Part shown: piece by piece, positions 2,164 through 22,131 of the stretch
Numbering within the stretch: the first letter of the stretch is position 1
How the letters are laid out: each line of letters opens with the position of its first letter
Source: a virus
Direction: 5' to 3' (one strand)
DNA length: 24,060 nucleotides
IMG/VR virus record: IMGVR_UViG_3300024346_000506
Span: 1 to 24,060 of that record
Position numbers and translations under genes: made by a program
The notes under the pieces: model-generated
What the model saw: the letters and a program-made list of their open reading frames with translations, nothing else
Told to the model about the DNA's origin: nothing
Database searches by the model: none

Positions 2164-2298
2164 ATGACAGCGACAATTTTGCAGATTGCAGGCGCAACAC
2201 TTATCTCAATAGGTGCAGCGCTTATTTATCTGCCCCTTGGAATCATTCTAGCGGGGCTTACGGCACTCGTGTTCGGTATTGCTTTGGAGCGTAACTAA
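2164..2298 (+). CDS. Small membrane protein between terminase and portal
   Basis: A 44-residue ORF (ATG at 2164, TAA at 2296-2298) is almost entirely hydrophobic, with two short apolar stretches (about residues 8-24 and 25-40) divided by the turn YLPLG, and ends with the charged residues ERN. It begins 6 bases after the terminase stop and its stop overlaps the portal start as TAATG, so it sits in a coupled chain, which supports it being real. It is probably an inner-membrane peptide. Its role is unknown; small apolar ORFs in packaging modules have no established function. Confidence 0.7.
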   Translation: MTATILQIAGATLISIGAALIYLPLGIILAGLTALVFGIALERN

Positions 2299-3614
2299 TG
2301 CTAAATAATCTTTTTGAAAAACGCGCAGTGTCATTTCAGTCCGTCTGGGGATCTGGTGACTTTCTGGAAAGCCAGTCCCAAGCTGGGACTTCGGTGACTA
2401 CAGATAGCGCCCTACAGCTAAACGCGGTGTTCTCTGCGGTGTCACTTATCTCCGACACCTTGGCAACTCTGCCAATAGACGCCTACATCCGTAGAGACGG
2501 CGCTCGCTACGCCTATCGTCCACGACCAGCGTGGGTGACCAATCCTGACATTGACACGACCAAGGAGGCTTTCTATGGCTCTGCAATCGTTTCTCTGCTA
2601 CTAGAAGGCAATACCTTTATTCGCATCTTCCGCAACAATAAGGGAGAGGTTCTAAACCTCAATGTCTTGAACCCATTAGATGTAGAGATCAAGCGCAACG
2701 GTCTTGGAAGAATCATGTTCAATGTCAAGGGAGAGAAGAAGGCTCTTAGCTCCGATGACATTCTATTTATCCCAGATGTAGTGAAGCCAGGTCACCTTCG
2801 TGGAATCTCTCGCGTAGAGGCGCTAAAGGAGAATTTCGGTTTGGCTAAGGCTCTGGAGAACTACGCAAGCAAGTTCTTTGGGTCTGGCACTCAGACTTCT
2901 GGTGTTCTAGAGGTCCCAGGCAACCTAACCTCAGATCAAGCAAAAATGATGCAGGATGCGTTTGATTCTCGTCACCGTGGCTGGAATAAGGCACACAAGA
3001 CTGCAATCGTCACGGGCGGTGCTACTTACAAGCCAACCAATGTTCCAAATGACCAAGCTCAGTTTTTAGACTCTCGCAGAATGGCCGTAGAGGATGTTGC
3101 TCGTGCATTCAACATTCCACCACACCTTCTAGGGCTTCCAGGCGCTGCAAGCTACAACAGCGTTGAGATGAACAACATCGCATTCGTTACTCACACCCTT
3201 AGACCTATAGCTCAGAAGCTAGAGACGGCTCTGTCAGGGCTATTGCAACAAGAGACGGGTCTTGATTCAGTATTCATCAAAATAAGCCTAGACGGGCTTC
3301 TGAGAGCAGACATCAACTCTCGTACAGAGTCTTATTCTCGTGGACTCCAAGCTGGTTACTACAAGATCAACGACATCCGCCGTTTCGAGGACCTAGTGCC
3401 TATCACCGATCCATCAGCAGAAACAGTGCGCGTTCCACTTGCCAATGTGAATGTGGACGCTGCCGACCTGAGCGCAATGGCTACTAAGGTCGAGATGCTA
3501 CAGCGCCTAATTCAGTCCGGTTATGACCCAGAGGACGCTTCACAGAAACTGGGACTACCAAGCTTTGTCCACACTGGCAAGGTTTCAGTACAGCTACAGC
3601 AGGAGGGTCAATAA
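2298..3614 (+). CDS. Portal protein (HK97-type)
   Basis: The 438-residue product forms the dodecameric ring at the capsid vertex through which DNA enters. Recognisable portal features are the N-terminal LNAVFSAVSLISDTLATLP segment, then NPLDVEIKRN with a short beta region, ILFIPD, the central SKFFGSGTQTSGVL region, and the late FNIPPHLLGLPGAASYNSVE block typical of HK97 gp3-like portals. It follows the terminase as expected and starts at a TAATG overlap with the small membrane gene. Length is within the family range and no oddity is seen. Confidence 0.95.
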   Translation: MLNNLFEKRAVSFQSVWGSGDFLESQSQAGTSVTTDSALQLNAVFSAVSLISDTLATLPIDAYIRRDGARYAYRPRPAWVTNPDIDTTKEAFYGSAIVSLLLEGNTFIRIFRNNKGEVLNLNVLNPLDVEIKRNGLGRIMFNVKGEKKALSSDDILFIPDVVKPGHLRGISRVEALKENFGLAKALENYASKFFGSGTQTSGVLEVPGNLTSDQAKMMQDAFDSRHRGWNKAHKTAIVTGGATYKPTNVPNDQAQFLDSRRMAVEDVARAFNIPPHLLGLPGAASYNSVEMNNIAFVTHTLRPIAQKLETALSGLLQQETGLDSVFIKISLDGLLRADINSRTESYSRGLQAGYYKINDIRRFEDLVPITDPSAETVRVPLANVNVDAADLSAMATKVEMLQRLIQSGYDPEDASQKLGLPSFVHTGKVSVQLQQEGQ

Positions 3615-3892
3615 TGACAGTGCTCAACAACGCCATCACGCTATCAAACACCGTAGCAACTCCTATCATCGTGCCAGATAATCAGAGACAGGTCGTGTAC
3701 TTGCACAACTTGACCAAAAGCTCTAATGAATACATCCACATTGGCAATTCAGATGTCACGCTAACAAACAGTTTCCACCTAGATCCAGGACAAACAGTCG
3801 AACTACAGATACCAGCAGGTGACTCGCTATGGGCTATGTCAGACCCTGATGGATTAGTAGTTGGGGTGTTGCAAATGCAGAATAGGGACTAA
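3614..3892 (+). CDS. Small beta-rich protein of the head module
   Basis: This 92-residue protein has alternating short polar and apolar segments (VVYLHNLTKSSNEYIHIGN, then LDPGQTVELQIPAGDSLWAM), consistent with an all-beta fold such as a small jelly roll. GGAGGG at 3602-3607 gives a strong ribosome binding site, and the start overlaps the portal stop as TAATG. No catalytic motif is visible. Its position between portal and protease suggests a head-associated or decoration protein, but that is inference from context; the family is not recognised. Confidence 0.8.
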   Translation: MTVLNNAITLSNTVATPIIVPDNQRQVVYLHNLTKSSNEYIHIGNSDVTLTNSFHLDPGQTVELQIPAGDSLWAMSDPDGLVVGVLQMQNRD

Positions 3893-5157
3893 TGATCAAC
3901 GACATAGAGGAGAACATAGATGGCCTTGATACCAGATCCGTCAGGGATACCAAAGACGGACAAGAAGCCAGAGCCGAAACCAGAACAGAAGCCTGTCAAG
4001 ATTGTGACGGAAACTGTGAAGTCTGTGGATACGCCGAAGCCAGCTCCAAAGAAAACAACAGCGAAGAAGTCAGGCAAGTAAACCTAGCTCCACCAGCATA
4101 TATGCGAGCTGCTGCCCGTAGGGGTATCGCATACTATGAGGAGGGACTCGGAGGCGATGGCTTAGTTGATAGAACTATCAGAGAAGCTCGCGCAATGGCT
4201 CAGGGGAATGTCACTGCTGAGAAGTGGGTCAGGATTCGGGCTTGGATTGCTCGTCATCTTGTTGATCTTGATTCTCCTGCTGCTTCGCCTGACTCTGCTG
4301 AATACCCAAGTGCTGGTGTAGTTGCACACTTACTATGGGGTTCTGGTCCTTCTAAACGAGGCGCTCAGAGAGCTTTAGCTTACGCCGAGGGTGTAGTAGC
4401 TAGAATAGAACAAGAGAATGAAGGCAGAGCGAAAGGCCAAGCATTGTCCAAGATTGAGACACGCACAACTTCTATTGAGTTGGCAGAGATCCGCGAAGCG
4501 GGAGATAGCATGACCTTTGAGGGTTATGCCGCTATCTTTGACTCACCAAGTGAGCCACTTCCGTTTATTGAGAGAATAGCCCCTGGCGCATTCAAGCGCT
4601 CTATTGAGGCTCGCAATGACATCAAGATGCTGTGGAACCACGACACGGGCGTTATCCTAGGCTCTAGCCGAGCTGGAACCCTACGCCTAGTCGAGGACGA
4701 GCGAGGGCTAAAGGTAGTGGCTTCACTGCCTAACACCAGCGCTGGTCGTGACACCGCAGAGCTTCTACGCCGTGGAGATGTAGATTCTATGTCTTTCGGG
4801 TTTTCAGTGCCTTCAGGTGGAGATGAGTGGAGTCCGGATGGACAACAGCGCACTCTAAAGAGCGTCAGACTCCATGAAGTTTCTATCGTTGCTTTCCCCG
4901 CGTATTCAGCGACTGCTGGTACTACTTCAGTTCGTGGACTAGATGTTGTGGCTGAAAGGGCAGAAGTTGATGCAGACGCACTAGCCGATGCAATGACCAA
5001 ACTTGAAAATGGCGAGCAACTATCTGAAGAAGAAGGTCGCTTGCTAAATCAAGCAATTACAGGCTCCACTCTTGTAGAGGCTCAGCCAGAGCCAAAGGGT
5101 GACCTAGAGCGCCTAGCTCTAAAGAAGCTAAAGCTCAAACTACTGACAGGAAACTAA
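3892..5157 (+). CDS. Capsid maturation protease (HK97 prohead protease) with extra N-terminal domain
   Basis: The frame encodes 421 residues. The C-terminal half is a U35-type prohead protease: GYAAIFDSPSEPLPFIERI at 211-229, WNHD with the catalytic-type H250, DSMSFGF with S299/S301, and HEVSIVAFPAY at 328-338. Residues 64-172 form a separate helical domain (APPAYMRAAARRG, WVRIRAWIARHLVDLD, HLLWGSGPSKRGAQRA) that I recall from other phage proteases with no known activity. Residues 35-45 carry CxxC-x3-CxxC. The true start is uncertain: the 3892 ATG overlaps the upstream stop with a short TAGGG, the next in-frame ATG is 4102 and would remove part of the conserved domain, and another ORF occupies 3920-4081 in a second frame. 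The last third (about 350-421) is a charged tail. The protease would clip the capsid delta domain during maturation. Confidence 0.9.
   Translation: MINDIEENIDGLDTRSVRDTKDGQEARAETRTEACQDCDGNCEVCGYAEASSKENNSEEVRQVNLAPPAYMRAAARRGIAYYEEGLGGDGLVDRTIREARAMAQGNVTAEKWVRIRAWIARHLVDLDSPAASPDSAEYPSAGVVAHLLWGSGPSKRGAQRALAYAEGVVARIEQENEGRAKGQALSKIETRTTSIELAEIREAGDSMTFEGYAAIFDSPSEPLPFIERIAPGAFKRSIEARNDIKMLWNHDTGVILGSSRAGTLRLVEDERGLKVVASLPNTSAGRDTAELLRRGDVDSMSFGFSVPSGGDEWSPDGQQRTLKSVRLHEVSIVAFPAYSATAGTTSVRGLDVVAERAEVDADALADAMTKLENGEQLSEEEGRLLNQAITGSTLVEAQPEPKGDLERLALKKLKLKLLTGN
3907..3912 (+). promoter_or_regulatory. Strong ribosome binding site for an internal second-frame ORF
   Basis: GAGGAG lies 7 bases before the ATG at 3920. 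That ATG is out of frame with the protease, so this ideal site serves the Lys/Pro-rich ORF and not the protease frame. Confidence 0.6.
3920..4081 (+). CDS. Lys/Pro-rich small protein overlapping the protease 5' end in another frame
   Basis: This 53-residue ORF begins MALIPDPSGIPKTDKK and continues with KPEPKPEQKP, then PKPAPKKTTAKKSGK before a TAA at 4079-4081. It lies one frame away (-1 relative shift would join it to the protease) from the 3892 frame and has a textbook ribosome binding site, GAGGAG with a 7-base spacer. The regular Pro/Lys/Glu composition looks like a genuine disordered, basic phage peptide and not a random shadow. It may be an independent small protein, or the leader of a frameshifted protease. 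Which of the two overlapping readings is used in 3920-4081 cannot be settled by eye. Confidence 0.55.
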   Translation: MALIPDPSGIPKTDKKPEPKPEQKPVKIVTETVKSVDTPKPAPKKTTAKKSGK

Positions 5158-5553: not shown

Positions 5554-6720
5554 ATGTCTGAGTTCATCACTGCTCAGCAGGAAGTCCGTGCCAACCTGAC
5601 CGAGCAGATCCGCGATGTAATCGAATCTGCCGAGTCTGAGAGCCGTGGACTAGACGCTGCTGAACTAGAGAAGATTGACCGTATCGAAGCCGACATCCGC
5701 CGTGCGGACGAGGCAATCGCTGTTGCTACCCGCAACGAGGAGCGCAAGTCAGCACTTTCAGCTGCTGCTAAGGGCTTCGTTGTTGCAGAATCAGTTGAAG
5801 AACGTTCTTCTGCTGACATCCTTCGCAACATTGCCGAGACTCGTGGAAACCACACCTTCGAAGCTCGTACCCTAACCCCTTCGGACAACACCGTTCCAAA
5901 GACCTTCTACAACCAGGTATTTGATGTTGCCCGCCTAGTTGGACCGATGCTAGATGCAGGTCAGCGAATCAACACCGCTGGCGGAGAAGACATCACCATC
6001 CCAACTTTGACTCAGTACTCAACTGCAACCCTAAAGGCTGCTGGCGCTGCTCTTTCAGAGTCTGAGCCAACTTACTCCAGCATCACCCTTGGTGCTTACA
6101 AGTACGGTCTGTTGATCCCAGTTGCTAACGAGCTAATCACTGACGCTGGCTTCGACATCTCTGCTCACCTTGCAGAGCAGGCTGGTAACGGTCTAGGTTA
6201 CGCAGTAAACGCTGCTCTAACCACTGGATCTGGATCATCTGAGCCAAACGGTGTTGTAACCGCTTCTGGTGCAGGTGTAACAGGTGGAACTGGCGTAGCT
6301 GGTGCATTCACCGCTGATGACCTAATTGACCTTGCTTACTCGGTTGATGGTGCAGTTCGCCGTCTACCAGGTGCAACATTCCAGGCTAACGGTGCAAGCA
6401 TCGGCGCAATGCGTAAGCTAAAGGATGACAACGGTCAGTACCTATGGCAGGCTGGTCTAGCTGCTGGTCAGCCAGACACCTTCGCTGGCTTCCGCGTAAT
6501 CGAGAACCCTGCTTTGGCTGACACCGGACTAGACGCTAAGTCTGTCGTATTCGGTGACATCTCCAGCTACAAGGTTCGCGTTGCAGGTGGCCTACAGGTT
6601 GCTACCTCTGCTGACTACGCATTCGGTAACGATGTAACCACCTACCGTGTTGTAATGCGCGTAGATGGTGACCTTACCCACGCTGGTCACATCAAGCACT
6701 TCGTTGGTGGCGCAAGCTAA
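5554..6720 (+). CDS. Major capsid protein (HK97 fold)
   Basis: The 388-residue product is an HK97-type shell protein. Residues 1 to about 95 are a charged, helical coiled-coil (TEQIRDVIESAESESRGLD, EKIDRIEADIRRADEAI) matching the delta scaffolding domain, expected to be removed by the upstream protease near residues 95-110. The mature part has a P-rich start, the E-loop region around residues 140-165 (GEDITIPTLTQYST), GLLIPVANELI and the C-terminal domain ending HIKHFVGGAS. It stands as a single-gene unit between two terminators, with a good AGGAG site, as expected for the most abundant protein. Leucine codons are strikingly biased to CTA. Confidence 0.95.
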   Translation: MSEFITAQQEVRANLTEQIRDVIESAESESRGLDAAELEKIDRIEADIRRADEAIAVATRNEERKSALSAAAKGFVVAESVEERSSADILRNIAETRGNHTFEARTLTPSDNTVPKTFYNQVFDVARLVGPMLDAGQRINTAGGEDITIPTLTQYSTATLKAAGAALSESEPTYSSITLGAYKYGLLIPVANELITDAGFDISAHLAEQAGNGLGYAVNAALTTGSGSSEPNGVVTASGAGVTGGTGVAGAFTADDLIDLAYSVDGAVRRLPGATFQANGASIGAMRKLKDDNGQYLWQAGLAAGQPDTFAGFRVIENPALADTGLDAKSVVFGDISSYKVRVAGGLQVATSADYAFGNDVTTYRVVMRVDGDLTHAGHIKHFVGGAS

Positions 6721-9511: not shown

Positions 9512-11614
9512 ATGGCATTTCAAAACTTACTCATACCGATTGTTACGGCGTTCAATGCTGTTGGAATCAAGGCTGCTCGTGGTGCTCTAGGCAACCTAAC
9601 CAAGGACTTCGGGGGCTTCGCTAAAGAAGCTGGTAAGGCTGCTGCCGCGTTCGGTGCTGCCCAAGCCATTATGGGTGGAACTGAATTTATCAAGGGTGCT
9701 GTAAATGTCACTCAGCAGTATGAGCGGAATATGCTCGCTCTACAGCAGGTGTTCGAAAAAGCCACTCCTGAGATGGCTAAGTTCACCGTTGAAGCTGCCT
9801 CAATGGGTATCTCTCAGGCTGAATCTGCAAAGGCTTCCGTATTCCTCGGTTCGGTTCTAAAGCAGTACGGAATGAATGTAGAGTCTGCTGGCTCAGAGAC
9901 TCGCAAGCTTGTAGGTCTGTCTCAGGACTTGGCAACTACCTATGGCTACGATCTTCAAGAAGCTCTCTTGGCGATGACTGCTTTGTTCCGTGGTGAGTAC
10001 GACCCGATTGAGAAGTTCGGTGTCGCTATGAAGCAAAACGAGATCAACTCGCTTCTAGCTGCCCGTGGACAAGACAAGCTGACTGGCGCTGCTCTTGCCC
10101 AAGCAACGGTAGCCACACGCCTTGAATTGCTCTATCAGAGGGCAGGAGACTCTCTAGGGGCATTTGACAGGGCTAACGGCACTCTATACGCCTCACAGCA
10201 GAAGCTAAACGCTGCCTGGCAGAATACTCAACTTCTAGTCGGTGAGGCTCTACAGGAGCCATTGGCAAACCTGATTGACTCGATGGCCGAGATTGCCACT
10301 AAGCATGGACCTGAGTTTACAGCTATTGGTGAGTCTATGGGTAGGGCAGTAGAAGAACTGACCCCACACATCATAAGAACAGTAGACGCTCTGGCGAACT
10401 TACTTAGTGTGCTTCCAGCATTCATAGACGCCGGAACTCAGGCAACTAAAGTTTTCGGTGACATGAATGAGGAGTTCCTCTTTGCTGCTGGTGTACAACT
10501 TCCAATCAACAGAGAAATAGAAATTCTTATAGGTCAAATTGAGGACCTTCAGTACATTGTTGATCAAACTTACTATTCAACACCAGAGGCAGAACAAAAG
10601 CTTGAAGCACTAAAAGAGCAACTCCACAACCTACGAGGCGAGATTACTCAAAATGCGGTAGAGACTAAGCGCTTTACCGAGCTTTACGAGAAGGCTCTTG
10701 ATGGTCCAGATGTAATTGGCGCTGCCCGTAACTGGTCATACTTTGAACAAGTCCTTACTCAGGCTGGTATCGCCTCTCGTAATGTCGAGGGTGCTCTTGT
10801 TGGCGTTGGATCTGTTTTGGGTAGCCTTGGGGAAGAAATCGCCAAGAGTGAAGCAGGCGCGGAACTTGACCGCATGGGATTCAGTGCTGCTCAGATTGAG
10901 TTTGCACTAACGCAACCTAACTGGCAACAGATTTTCGGTCAGATTTCTCGATTGGCTCAGATTGCCTCAATGGACATCTATTCCATAGGTACGAATGCCG
11001 CATATGGAGCAGCAGTAGCTCAGGGGGCAGCACAAGCAACCCTAAACGAGCTTCGTGCAAACATGGCTAAGACTTGGCAGGACTTCTCCGCTGGCTGGTA
11101 TAAGGCTGGCAATGTGGCTTCTAAGGCAGTTGCTCAGATTGCCGACCCACTAGAGGATCTTCGCAAGATGGTTGCGAGTTCGATATCTGGGATTGCAGAC
11201 AGCATTGTTGGCGCTTTCCAGATTGGTGACATTGACCCTAGCAAGGGCTACCTGGCTGGCGCTAAGAAGATGCTTGCTCGACTCCGTGCCTTTGCAACTG
11301 AACTAAAGAAACTATCGTCTCAGGGATTGCACCCTGCCCTTCTACAGCAGGTAATGTCTCTTGGTGCAACTGACGGGCTTCAGGTAGCGCGTGACCTTGG
11401 AAAAAACGAAGGCGGTCTAATCGGCGGCCTAAATGAAGTATTCGGTGATGTCCAAGCACTGGGTATGTCTACTGCTGGCTCAATTACAAGTGGTCAGTCA
11501 AACTACTACATCACGGTAAATGGTGGAGTTGGTGACAAGAAAACCATTGGAACGGCTATTGTTGATGCTATCAAGAGCTATGAGCGCTCTAATGGTATTG
11601 GGTGGAGGGCATAG
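9512..11614 (+). CDS. Tape measure protein
   Basis: The 700-residue protein fixes tail length. It has an Ala/Gly-rich helical start (KAARGALGNLTKDFGGFAKE), the conserved tape-measure core with VTQQYERNMLALQQVFEKA and LALTTYGYDLQEALLAM-type segments, GEYDPIEKFGVAM, and long helices with QKLEALKEQLHNLRGEI coiled-coil. The C-terminus NYYITVNGGVGD...IVDAIKSYERSNG is typical of actinophage tape measures. No peptidase or lysozyme domain is visible. At roughly 1.5 angstrom per residue it predicts a tail near 100 nm. Its stop overlaps the next GTG start. Confidence 0.93.
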   Translation: MAFQNLLIPIVTAFNAVGIKAARGALGNLTKDFGGFAKEAGKAAAAFGAAQAIMGGTEFIKGAVNVTQQYERNMLALQQVFEKATPEMAKFTVEAASMGISQAESAKASVFLGSVLKQYGMNVESAGSETRKLVGLSQDLATTYGYDLQEALLAMTALFRGEYDPIEKFGVAMKQNEINSLLAARGQDKLTGAALAQATVATRLELLYQRAGDSLGAFDRANGTLYASQQKLNAAWQNTQLLVGEALQEPLANLIDSMAEIATKHGPEFTAIGESMGRAVEELTPHIIRTVDALANLLSVLPAFIDAGTQATKVFGDMNEEFLFAAGVQLPINREIEILIGQIEDLQYIVDQTYYSTPEAEQKLEALKEQLHNLRGEITQNAVETKRFTELYEKALDGPDVIGAARNWSYFEQVLTQAGIASRNVEGALVGVGSVLGSLGEEIAKSEAGAELDRMGFSAAQIEFALTQPNWQQIFGQISRLAQIASMDIYSIGTNAAYGAAVAQGAAQATLNELRANMAKTWQDFSAGWYKAGNVASKAVAQIADPLEDLRKMVASSISGIADSIVGAFQIGDIDPSKGYLAGAKKMLARLRAFATELKKLSSQGLHPALLQQVMSLGATDGLQVARDLGKNEGGLIGGLNEVFGDVQALGMSTAGSITSGQSNYYITVNGGVGDKKTIGTAIVDAIKSYERSNGIGWRA

Positions 11615-12726
11615 TGGCAGTATCTAGCAAGGTTGAGATACGCTACACCCCTGCCGATTCATCTTGGCAAGACATCACTGCTTATGTAACCAGCATTGCG
11701 GTAAGCAGGGGCAAGTCATCTGAGTTTGATGACTTTCAGGCTGGTCAAGTACAAGTAACTGTAAACAATCACGGCAGAGAGTTTGACCCCTCTTATGGTG
11801 GTCTATTCAGCGCCTATGTAAAGCCAGCAGGAGATGTCAGGGTTGTCTCCTCTAACGAGCTGGTCTTTCAAGGCAAGATAGATGACTGGAATCTTTCCTA
11901 CTCTCCAGACGGAAGTAGCGTTGCAAGCTTTACAGGCTCAGACGGGTTCATTGAGTTAGCCAACAAAACTATCATTGGTTACACACCATCTGCCCAGAGA
12001 GCTGATCAGAGAATCACCGACATCCTTGGTCGAGCTGAGGTTGATTATGACTATGACGCAGACAAGATTTCGGTCAGCGTGACTAATGTTGGTGACTACA
12101 CAATCGGTGACGGCACAAGTGTTTTGCAATACATTCAGTCAGTCAGCGCAAGTGAGCCTGGGCGTTTGTTTATGGACAAGTCTGGCGATCTAGTATTCAA
12201 GAGTCGCAACGATGCTCTCTACGAAACGGACTATACCTACTACCGACAGAATCTCTCAGAAAACCCCTCATTTGAGAACGATGCTAGTAGCTGGAGTGGA
12301 AGTATCGCTCGTAGCGTCTCAGATGCTTATGTCGGCACTGCTTGTGGTGCATTCAGTGGAGCAACCGTCTATCAGAATTTCAGTGCAGAGCAAAACTCTA
12401 CTTATACCCTAAGTATCTATGCAAAGGCACAATCGGGCACTCCTAGCATTACTTGGAATGCCTATCAGTCCATTGACGGGGCTTACTATGAGGGTGTTGG
12501 TGCTCAGTCTGTGACCCTAAGCACTTCTGCGTGGACTCGACTTGACATAACCTTTACTACAGAGCCTGACTACATCTTTGGCAGATTTCAGCTTTTCTCG
12601 GCTGACGCTGTTTATGTAGACGCTTGTTTGATTGAGAAGTCAGGTCAGCTACTTGAATACTTTGACGGAAGCAACGCTCCCGATGACACTGATACTGAAA
12701 CCTTTACCGCTAGTTGGGATCTGTAA
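11614..12726 (+). CDS. Minor tail (hub) protein, N-terminal half, with carbohydrate-binding-like module
   Basis: The GTG at 11614 overlaps the tape measure stop (TAGTG) with GGAGGG at 11604-11609; the product has 370 residues. Residues 1-200 (KVEIRYTPADSSWQDITAYV-type opening, DDFQAGQVQVTVNN, GRLFMDKSGDLVFKSR) match the front half of a baseplate hub protein common in actinophages. Residues about 210-353 (NLSENPSFENDASSWSGS, NSTYTLSIYAKAQSG, YFDGSNAPDDTD) form a beta-sandwich resembling CBM4/9-type carbohydrate-binding domains, a likely receptor or cell-wall contact. The back half of the hub is missing here and appears at the end of the next gene. Confidence 0.82.
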   Translation: MAVSSKVEIRYTPADSSWQDITAYVTSIAVSRGKSSEFDDFQAGQVQVTVNNHGREFDPSYGGLFSAYVKPAGDVRVVSSNELVFQGKIDDWNLSYSPDGSSVASFTGSDGFIELANKTIIGYTPSAQRADQRITDILGRAEVDYDYDADKISVSVTNVGDYTIGDGTSVLQYIQSVSASEPGRLFMDKSGDLVFKSRNDALYETDYTYYRQNLSENPSFENDASSWSGSIARSVSDAYVGTACGAFSGATVYQNFSAEQNSTYTLSIYAKAQSGTPSITWNAYQSIDGAYYEGVGAQSVTLSTSAWTRLDITFTTEPDYIFGRFQLFSADAVYVDACLIEKSGQLLEYFDGSNAPDDTDTETFTASWDL

Positions 12727-14150
12727 TGACATACTCCACCTATACCAATAACGCGACTCCTAACCTAAGCCCGCAATCTCAACTAAATGAGAAGGTTGCT
12801 CAGCTAATCACACTGCCAACTTATTCAGACAGAGCAGTGCCAGGTAAGTCCGGTAACTCAGCCCACCCTATCTTGGTCCGAGATGTGACTATTGCCTATG
12901 GTCGGTATACAGGTGACACCGTTGATTCTTCAAAGATCGGTATGTGGGCAAACGATGGAACAAATGCTTACTACTCAGCCGATATTGCCCTAGGTGCAAC
13001 CACAAGCGGGATTCCTAGCAATAAGACTGGAACCGTAACTCGTCCTTGCTACGGGAGCACTCAGTATTGGATTGGCTTTACCGCACCAAGCTCTGCTTAC
13101 ATGACTTGGGCAGTCCAAAACAACATTGAGTCACCTTATGTGGCAAGAGTGCGCGAGGACAACACATCCTCTACTGGTAGCTTCAACAACGATGACTACG
13201 CAATCGGCTCTAGTTCGACCACCAATGGTCAGCTCGCGTATTCAGTCACCTATGACATTATCCCTACTGCTCCGCTGAGCCTAAGCGCAACGCTAAACGG
13301 GACAACTCAGATTGACCTAAGCTGGTCTGCTCCTTCAAATAATGGCGGAACTGCAATCACTGGCTACAAGATTCAGCGCTCTATTGACGGAGCCAGCTTC
13401 TCATCCATAGTGGTAAACAGTGGCTCAACCTCTACTACCTATTCAGATGTTGGACTTACTCCAGGCGTCACCTACTACTACAGAGTAGCTGCTCACAATG
13501 CTGTGACTGAGGCTTTTGACGCTTCCTACACCTCACCTTTCAGTAACACCGACTCAGAGACAACTTCTGGTTCGGCTGGAAACACTACCTCGACCCTTCA
13601 GATAGATGTAAGCAACCCAGCGCCAGAGTTCACTGTCTTTGGTGACTACGCAGGTGCTATTCACTTCAGTAACCTAGAAATTACTTATGGATCTGAGCGT
13701 TTATTCAATCGTGTTGTTGTGACCAGAGAAGAAGGTAGCGCTCAGACGGCAGAGGCAGAACAGAGCCAAGCAAACTATGGAATTAGAAGCCTTGACCTCG
13801 GTTCTCTAAATGAAACTGACGCTGAAGCTTTGGAGTTGGCTCAGGAATACCTATACCGCTACTATGAGCCTCAGTTGCGTATTGAGGCCATCCAGGTAAA
13901 CATCAACGGTATTAGCACAAGCCAAGCGCAGACTGTATTGGGACTTGATCTTGATAACGCCGTGGAGGTCTACTTCACTCCTAACGGCATTGGTGACCCA
14001 ATAAATCAGATTGGGCGCATCATCGGCATTAGCCATGAAATCGGGCTAGAGAGCCACATAGTAACTCTTAGCCTGAGCACCGAAGGGCTAGACATCTTTA
14101 CGCTTGATTCCGAAGTGAGCGGAATCCTTGACCAGAACCTCCTTGGATAG
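12726..14150 (+). CDS. Minor tail protein with fibronectin III domain and hub C-terminal half
   Basis: The start is the ATG in a TAATG overlap with the previous gene; the product has 474 residues. Residues 1-175 form a Ser/Thr/Tyr-rich beta module I do not recognise (IGMWANDGTNAYYSADI, YWIGFTAPSSAYMTW). Residues about 180-280 are a fibronectin type III domain (TQIDLSWSAPSNNGGTAITGY, TPGVTYYYRVAAHNA). Residues 290-474 (IHFSNLEITYGSERLFNRVVV, then ALELAQEYLYRYYEPQLR, VEVYFTPNGIGDPINQIGR) match the back half of the actinophage hub protein whose front half is in the previous gene. Both products probably sit together at the tail tip. Confidence 0.8.
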   Translation: MTYSTYTNNATPNLSPQSQLNEKVAQLITLPTYSDRAVPGKSGNSAHPILVRDVTIAYGRYTGDTVDSSKIGMWANDGTNAYYSADIALGATTSGIPSNKTGTVTRPCYGSTQYWIGFTAPSSAYMTWAVQNNIESPYVARVREDNTSSTGSFNNDDYAIGSSSTTNGQLAYSVTYDIIPTAPLSLSATLNGTTQIDLSWSAPSNNGGTAITGYKIQRSIDGASFSSIVVNSGSTSTTYSDVGLTPGVTYYYRVAAHNAVTEAFDASYTSPFSNTDSETTSGSAGNTTSTLQIDVSNPAPEFTVFGDYAGAIHFSNLEITYGSERLFNRVVVTREEGSAQTAEAEQSQANYGIRSLDLGSLNETDAEALELAQEYLYRYYEPQLRIEAIQVNINGISTSQAQTVLGLDLDNAVEVYFTPNGIGDPINQIGRIIGISHEIGLESHIVTLSLSTEGLDIFTLDSEVSGILDQNLLG

Positions 14151-16418: not shown

Positions 16419-16447
16419 AACATAAAGAGTAATTAGCTGTTTGTCAA
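16419..16447 (-). promoter_or_regulatory. Consensus sigma70-type promoter for the first WhiB gene
   Basis: On the minus strand TTGACA (16447-16442) and TATGTT (16424-16419) are separated by exactly 17 bases. The predicted start of transcription is at or one base before the ATG at 16411, with no ribosome binding site, so the message is probably leaderless. The -35 overlaps the stop codon of the second WhiB gene. Confidence 0.78.
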
Positions 16448-16710
16448 ATCGCCCGTTCGTCAGCGGAAGTACAACCCCAGATGCCGTACTCTTGGTTAGT
16501 TTCCAAGGCATACTCAAAACAGATTTTTTTTATTGGACATCGGTTGCAAAGGATCTTGGCAGCTTCAATAGCCGCCTCGCGGTAATCGTAGTCAGGAATA
16601 TCCTCTGGGAAGAATAGTGCTTGGTAGTCCTCGCACTCAACGCCGCCATTACTTTGAATCGCAGATAACAATTTCATATATCCGCTTGAATAATGTCCCA
16701 GGTGGCGCAT
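16444..16710 (-). CDS. Second WhiB-family protein, lacking the C-terminal DNA-binding tail
   Basis: The 88-residue minus-strand product has the WhiB cysteines C26, C55, C58 and C64 (CNRCPIKKIC) and the GIWGC turn at 76-80, with an additional C80. It ends eight residues later at TSADERAI, so the usual basic tail that contacts DNA is missing. It could still hold an iron-sulfur cluster and bind a sigma factor. It lies upstream of the first WhiB gene and diverges from the early operon. An internal Met (residue 12) is an alternative start. Stop TGA is clean, so a truncation by frameshift is not evident. Confidence 0.9.
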   Translation of the reverse strand: MRHLGHYSSGYMKLLSAIQSNGGVECEDYQALFFPEDIPDYDYREAAIEAAKILCNRCPIKKICFEYALETNQEYGIWGCTSADERAI

Positions 16711-21630: not shown

Positions 21631-21868
21631 TTGGAGACACTTCAGGTATGAAGTCGCTGAGTTTTTCTTTGGCAACATACTAGACGAGACATTCAGGGAC
21701 GGGCAGATCTCAGGTGTGGAGTACACATCGAGAACTCTCGGCATGGCAGTGCGTAACCTGGATGTATCAAAGATGACCAAGACCCAGAAGATAGGGCACG
21801 AAGCTTCTATGGCGGCAATCGCAGAAGCCAAGAAAGAAATTATGAGAAAGACCGGAGTAGCACTATGA
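21617..21868 (+). CDS. Small helical hypothetical protein
   Basis: The 83-residue product starts at the ATG 21617 inside the previous gene; the in-frame GTG at 21608 is a weaker option with a poorly spaced AGGG. It has an aromatic/acidic start (HDWRHFRYEVAEFFFGNIL), a central region with GVEYTSRTLGMAVRNLD, and a Lys-rich helix (SMAAIAEAKKEIMRK). No known domain is visible. Its stop overlaps the redoxin start (ATGA). Confidence 0.72.
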   Translation: MTKHDWRHFRYEVAEFFFGNILDETFRDGQISGVEYTSRTLGMAVRNLDVSKMTKTQKIGHEASMAAIAEAKKEIMRKTGVAL

Positions 21869-22131
21869 AGATCCCAGTAGTTATTTACACAACCCCTAAC
21901 TGCCCTCAGTGCATGATGACAGCCCGCAAGATGGACAAGCTAGGCATCGTCTACGACAAGGTAGACCTAACCCAGCACCCTGACCTAGTAGAGCGCTTCA
22001 AGGAGATGGGCCACATGGCAGCACCGATTGTAGTCACCGACAAGAAAACTTGGTCAGGATTCCGTCTGGAAAAGATTGAGTCTCTAGCACGATTCCTAGC
22101 AAGCGAGGAAGCCAAAGGAGAGCAGAAGTGA
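21865..22131 (+). CDS. NrdH-like redoxin / glutaredoxin
   Basis: The 88-residue product has the redoxin fold with catalytic CPQC at residues 13-16 after PVVIYTTPN, the AAPIV strand with the cis-proline, and KKTWSGFRLEKIESLARF, the FxxDxxL-like helix typical of NrdH-type proteins. Such redoxins reduce ribonucleotide reductase or other targets. No reductase gene is in the window, so it may serve the host enzyme or a phage one outside the window. It overlaps genes on both sides by a few bases. Confidence 0.88.
   Translation: MKIPVVIYTTPNCPQCMMTARKMDKLGIVYDKVDLTQHPDLVERFKEMGHMAAPIVVTDKKTWSGFRLEKIESLARFLASEEAKGEQK

Follow-up and report, generated by a model that had tools for sequence, protein, structure and literature searches.

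Background

In phage lambda, the lysis genes Rz and Rz1 are nested, with Rz1 embedded in the +1 frame, having its own start and encoding a proline-rich product. In phage T4, the small and charged prohead-core proteins gp67 and gp68 are encoded between the portal gp20 and the protease gp21. The locus described here resembles Rz/Rz1 in that one tailed-phage gene is nested within another in the +1 frame, has a start of its own and encodes a product rich in proline; however, the small gene has no lysis context and lies in the head cassette, where it overlaps the protease gene. Its likeness to gp67 and gp68 is the place in the head cassette, a functional analogy only and not kinship; in T4 there is no overprinting of the protease gene, and no sequence similarity to the T4 proteins is claimed.

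The overlapped gene belongs to Peptidase_S78 (PF04586/phrog_80) by its profile match and by its place between portal and capsid, whereas its N-terminus is a variable stack of modules, and in a subset of phages the first module is read in the +1 frame as well. Overprinted viral genes (PMC8227390, PMC6195259) are likewise same-strand, out-of-frame overlaps with a small partner that looks unstructured. On the other hand, the domain in the partner frame is here replaced by unrelated modules, with the start motif and composition of the small ORF preserved, and some relatives carry the small gene without any overlap. No description of this overlap was found in the literature searched, the coverage of which was partial. 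Judging from sequence comparisons, bases 3919-4081 are very probably dual-coding, with the ORF at 3920 being a separate small gene.

Head gene cassette and protease

We analysed the 24,060-nt IMG/VR virus record IMGVR_UViG_3300024346_000506 (positions 1 to 24,060), referred to here as the window. Its head genes are arranged in the order terminase, portal, 92-aa gene, protease and capsid, with the following features:

2298-3614: portal (Pfam profile match, PF04860)
3614..3892, + strand: 92-aa gene 5′ of the protease, with stop TAA
3892..5157, + strand: predicted prohead protease, 421 aa (PF04586, phrog_80)
3907..3912, + strand: putative Shine-Dalgarno (SD) GAGGAG of the small gene, 7-base spacer
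3920..4081, + strand: candidate small overlapping gene, 53 aa, +1 frame, MALIPDPSGIPKTDKKPEPKPEQKPVKIVTETVKSVDTPKPAPKKTTAKKSGK, with homologs in relatives
3994..4026, + strand: protease-frame Cys4 module CxxCxxxCxxC, found in 32 loci
4078..4150, + strand: start of the conserved protease domain, VNLAPPAYMRAAARRG, coinciding with the end (AAG TAA) of the small gene
5554-6720: capsid (Pfam profile match, PF05065)

The gene at 3892..5157 is predicted to encode a prohead serine protease belonging to Peptidase_S78. It matched PF04586 with an E of 5.8e-46 (157 bits, the curated cut-off being 21), with the Peptidase_S78 domain at residues 202-350 (about 4495-4941), and phrog_80 with an E of 1.6e-69; it sits between the portal and major capsid genes. 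The stop of the 92-aa gene, for which no match was found in Pfam or PHROG profiles, has one base in common with the protease ATG at 3892 (TAATG), and the same junction was present in the overlapped relatives inspected. As the protease start overlaps the stop of the upstream gene, its translation is probably coupled to that of the 92-aa gene.

Within the protease family in IMG/VR, the conserved part begins with VNLxPPAYMRA, and tblastn matches mostly begin near protease residue 57-61. It is preceded by interchangeable modules, namely MPYF, Tudor-like (PF11160), HiPIP-like Cys, HAD (phosphatase-like), DUF5824 and Cys4. This swappable domain stack, seen in loci L001-L097, seems unusual for a capsid protease. 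The junction at which the small gene stops and the conserved domain starts was also found in L013, L074, L088 and L177.

A small ORF in the +1 frame of the protease gene

The sequence-only reading had noted a protease frame open from ATG 3892 with a CxxC-x3-CxxC cluster, and a second ORF in another frame at 3920-4081 with its own ribosome binding site. These observations were borne out: the protease frame runs to 5157, the cluster is CQDCDGNCEVC (codons 3994-4026, which read VKIVTETVKSV in the +1 frame), the second ORF encodes 53 aa in the +1 frame, and GAGGAG stands at 3907-3912, 7 bases before 3920. It was equally correct that the protease frame has no further start before 4102, where the ATG cuts the conserved domain, and that the overlap holds no slippery heptamer, X-XXY-YYZ being absent from the 3920 frame. 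The anti-SD energy was -8.9 kcal/mol at 3920 vs only -3.9 at the protease start 3892. The SD at 3920 ranks within the strongest 1.4% when compared with internal ATG/GTG sites of related protease genes.

When the protease frame was synonymously recoded, the +1 frame stayed open in 44% of trials (P = 0.44), so that its openness in the window means little and was rejected as evidence by itself. Within the window overlap, G or T occupied the protease third base in 11 of 53 codons (25.5 expected, P = 4e-5), and a +1 frame that is open and as hydrophilic as the one seen had a P of 0.001.

The small protein is Pro/Lys-rich; its start is invariant and its end basic. Searched against PHROGs, it gave only matches with E > 0.05 and could not be placed in a known family, and the small ORF of the window had no match in Pfam. 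Structure prediction returned no fold (mean pLDDT 71, pTM 0.16), and the modelled protein looks unstructured. The alignment of diverse small ORFs had too few conserved columns for a profile search.

The small ORF in related phages

We searched IMG/VR with a DNA pattern limited to the start site, one frame of which reads EPGGTY(S/T) and the other V(A/V)LIP. The pattern yielded 34 further loci, not all of them independent (some contigs duplicate one another or earlier loci), and the +1 frame was open over 41-92 codons in 34/34, with products sharing a Pro/Lys/Ser/Thr-rich make-up over several different protease modules. Many more loci were added by a second DNA pattern, designed for ATG-type starts. 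The overlapped loci numbered 75 (51 distinct: 29 Cys4, 16 Tudor-like and 6 HiPIP-like) and were spread across the protease tree; such counts do not equal independent events, since the loci are akin to one another and some share a sample of origin. Both frames were open and conserved in diverged relatives throughout the 51 distinct overlaps, and the frame relation of small ORF and protease was identical in all overlapped loci. The +1 ORF of relatives starts with (M/V)(A/V)LIP and is overlain by at least three unrelated protease-frame modules; Cys4 and the +1 ORF occur together in 32 loci.

An ATG or GTG start was retained at the start position of the small gene in relatives. For GTG-type starts the mean SD energy was -6.9 vs -4.3 at the equivalent site of ORF-lacking relatives, while the SD of ATG-type overlapped relatives was weak on average (-4.0). 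Translation start signals of its own were thus found for the small gene at 3920 and in the GTG class.

A recognisable small gene was absent from 98/180 protease loci, a number that includes truncated contigs and perhaps some loci with other start motifs, and the small gene therefore appears dispensable in many phages. Isolate phage genomes, searched with two versions of the small protein, gave no match, and Pontimonas phage phiPsal1, the one close isolate relative, had no small ORF at the corresponding site. Three loci (L221, L245 and L247) carry a variant small ORF starting with VALIQDSTGIPKN, along with a protease that has a HAD-like module after the Cys4 motif. In the L184 contig, the protease region seems to be frame-broken at several points, probably through assembly or sequencing errors, so that the small-ORF frame runs into protease sequence.

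Stand-alone copies of the small gene

In six loci (L168, L191, L194, L200, L210 and L211) the small gene stands alone: directly behind the portal and ahead of the protease lies a 56-aa gene, MALIPSKSGIPATTNK...KKTN, which has a Shine-Dalgarno of its own. The stand-alone gene starts with MALIPSKSGIP and ends before the protease start, and the -1 frame, in which the protease would have to be extended across it, is interrupted by several stops. We had also looked for the case named beforehand as refuting the small gene, in which the protease frame with its cysteines is intact and the 3920 frame is broken; none of the loci with Cys4 lacked the +1 ORF, and the stand-alone loci show the opposite, an intact +1 gene with stops throughout the protease frame. 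Since L168 clusters with overlapped relatives on the protease tree, the overlap was probably lost there and the small gene retained, on a tree that has open branches and leaves the number of gains and losses uncertain.

Selection on the two frames

The comparison of relatives for constraint in both frames, which the sequence-only reading had proposed, detected selection in the +1 as well as in the protease frame. In 33 distinct ORF-positive loci, the protease third bases of the overlap were A.36, C.45, G.09 and T.11, while those downstream in the same genes were.27/.26/.22/.25 (A/C/G/T) and those upstream were also near even. The corresponding region of ORF-lacking relatives contained stops and showed no bias (.23/.27/.23/.27). 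The bias sets in about 10 codons after the start of the small gene and tails off beyond its stop. Hydrophobic residues made up 12% of the +1 products vs 28% expected.

Substitutions between relatives were examined in pairs, and these tests rest on few changes (171 in the overlap). Third-base differences per codon in independent pairs were 0.26 in the overlap vs 0.43 downstream. Pairwise changes in the overlap created 0 new +1 stops where 6.6 were expected, vs 7 (8.3 expected) and 12 (17.9 expected) in the controls. Constraint on the protease, as SN/NN, was 4.9 in the overlap, 47 in the same region without the ORF and 23 downstream. Constraint on the +1 frame, as NS/NN over all pairs, was modest at 1.74 (95% 1.01-2.81), as expected of a low-complexity small protein, and purifying selection on this frame is indicated by that value together with the absence of new stops and the reduced protease constraint. 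In the Cys4 group of the window, changes silent in the +1 frame and altering the protease reached 2.0 times the neutral expectation.

For the protease frame, purifying selection is indicated by the Cys codons. Their first base, which is the +1 wobble position, was T in 128/128, comparable +1 wobble sites having about 20% T, and their third base varied (T 90, C 38). When the +1 frame was recoded, the probability that the protease frame is open was 0.03-0.16, and that it is open with Cys4 ≤ 0.003. Because the selection tests hold in both directions, both frames are, on this comparative evidence, coding.

Alternative readings

Three options had been considered at the outset: that both frames are used, that a -1 shift links the small peptide, as a leader, to the protease, or that one reading is accidental. 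An accidental +1 ORF, open only through a biased acidic protease linker, would agree with the openness expected in the window (P = 0.44) and with the way Lys arises in the +1 frame of acidic linkers, but it is barely credible given the third-base bias (P = 4e-5 in the window), the 34/34 loci found open without selecting for openness, the stand-alone homologs, and the stops and lack of bias in relatives without the ORF. The converse, in which the small gene is real, the protease starts downstream and the upstream protease frame with its Cys motif is accidental, draws on the substitutions of the Cys group, which favour the +1 frame, on the internal ATG that follows the small gene in L071-type phages and on the L168-type phages, which have no N-terminal extension. 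We consider it improbable nonetheless: the Cys4 codons always specify Cys and vary only silently between TGT and TGC, the Cys module runs on from an N-terminal MPYF domain in L013, L074 and others, and the sole later start in the window (4102) cuts the conserved domain. The option of one accidental reading was rejected.

A programmed -1 shift, fusing the 3920 ORF as a leader to the protease and giving a second protease form, would explain why the relation of the two frames is constant and why the small ORF stops near the junction with the conserved protease domain. Frameshifting is nevertheless very unlikely because there is no slippery heptamer in the window, and none common to the relatives by eye, and because the ATG/GTG starts are retained with Shine-Dalgarno sites. 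Moreover, the six stand-alone loci carry the small ORF as a complete gene of its own, under the Tudor-like module the end of the ORF can lie a long way upstream of the conserved protease domain, and each protease has its own TAATG start. The leader option was accordingly dropped, and independent initiation of the small gene is favoured from the sequence. What stood was the use of both frames, to which conservation, codon choice, the substitution tests in both directions and the stand-alone copies all point.

Discussion

With both frames used, translation from ATG 3892 would give a short N-terminal extension with the Cys4 motif and then the protease, while a second ribosome entry at GAGGAG/ATG 3920 would give a separate 53-aa Pro/Lys-rich protein ending at TAA 4079-4081, at the very point where the protease enters its conserved APPAYMRA domain. 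The small gene would be a persistent member of the head cassette (portal - small gene - protease - capsid) in related phages. Its product would be made during infection and may act as an accessory head-assembly or internal peptide, a putative role suggested by the gene position. Its work would depend on the N-terminus MALIPxxxGxP, the hydrophilic composition and the basic tail rather than on the exact sequence. It is likely that selection acts mainly on the short N-terminal motif and the hydrophilic, basic composition, and that the codons of unrelated modules (Cys4, Tudor-like, HiPIP-like) have in each case been tuned to accommodate the small ORF, which in some relatives has escaped the overlap.

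Related proteases occur in Microbacteriaceae MAG contigs and in Pontimonas phage phiPsal1, so the hosts are likely aquatic Microbacteriaceae. Two adjacent genes for WhiB-like transcription factors (PF02467; 16124-16423, - strand, E 1.5e-21, and 16444-16710, - strand, E 1.4e-15) are consistent with an actinobacterial host. Elsewhere in the window, two consecutive tail-type ORFs on the + strand, lying in different frames, share 13 bases (11602-12726 and 12714-14150, the latter with a fibronectin type III domain, PF00041) and may represent a single protein interrupted by an insertion or shift, and a glutaredoxin/NrdH-like gene (PF00462) lies at 21865-22131 (+ strand).

As many related aquatic phages keep the small protein, standard annotation appears to miss a real, conserved gene, which would make this a new, unannotated gene family in the head-assembly region of aquatic actinobacterial phages. 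It would be overprinting with a difference, in that the partner modules are exchanged while the small gene persists, and a natural experiment in which one small gene is overlapped by different partner domains, non-overlapped or absent; the cost and direction of overlap evolution would therefore be measurable. Composition-level selection on a disordered protein may, in this family, be readable in the codons of another gene.
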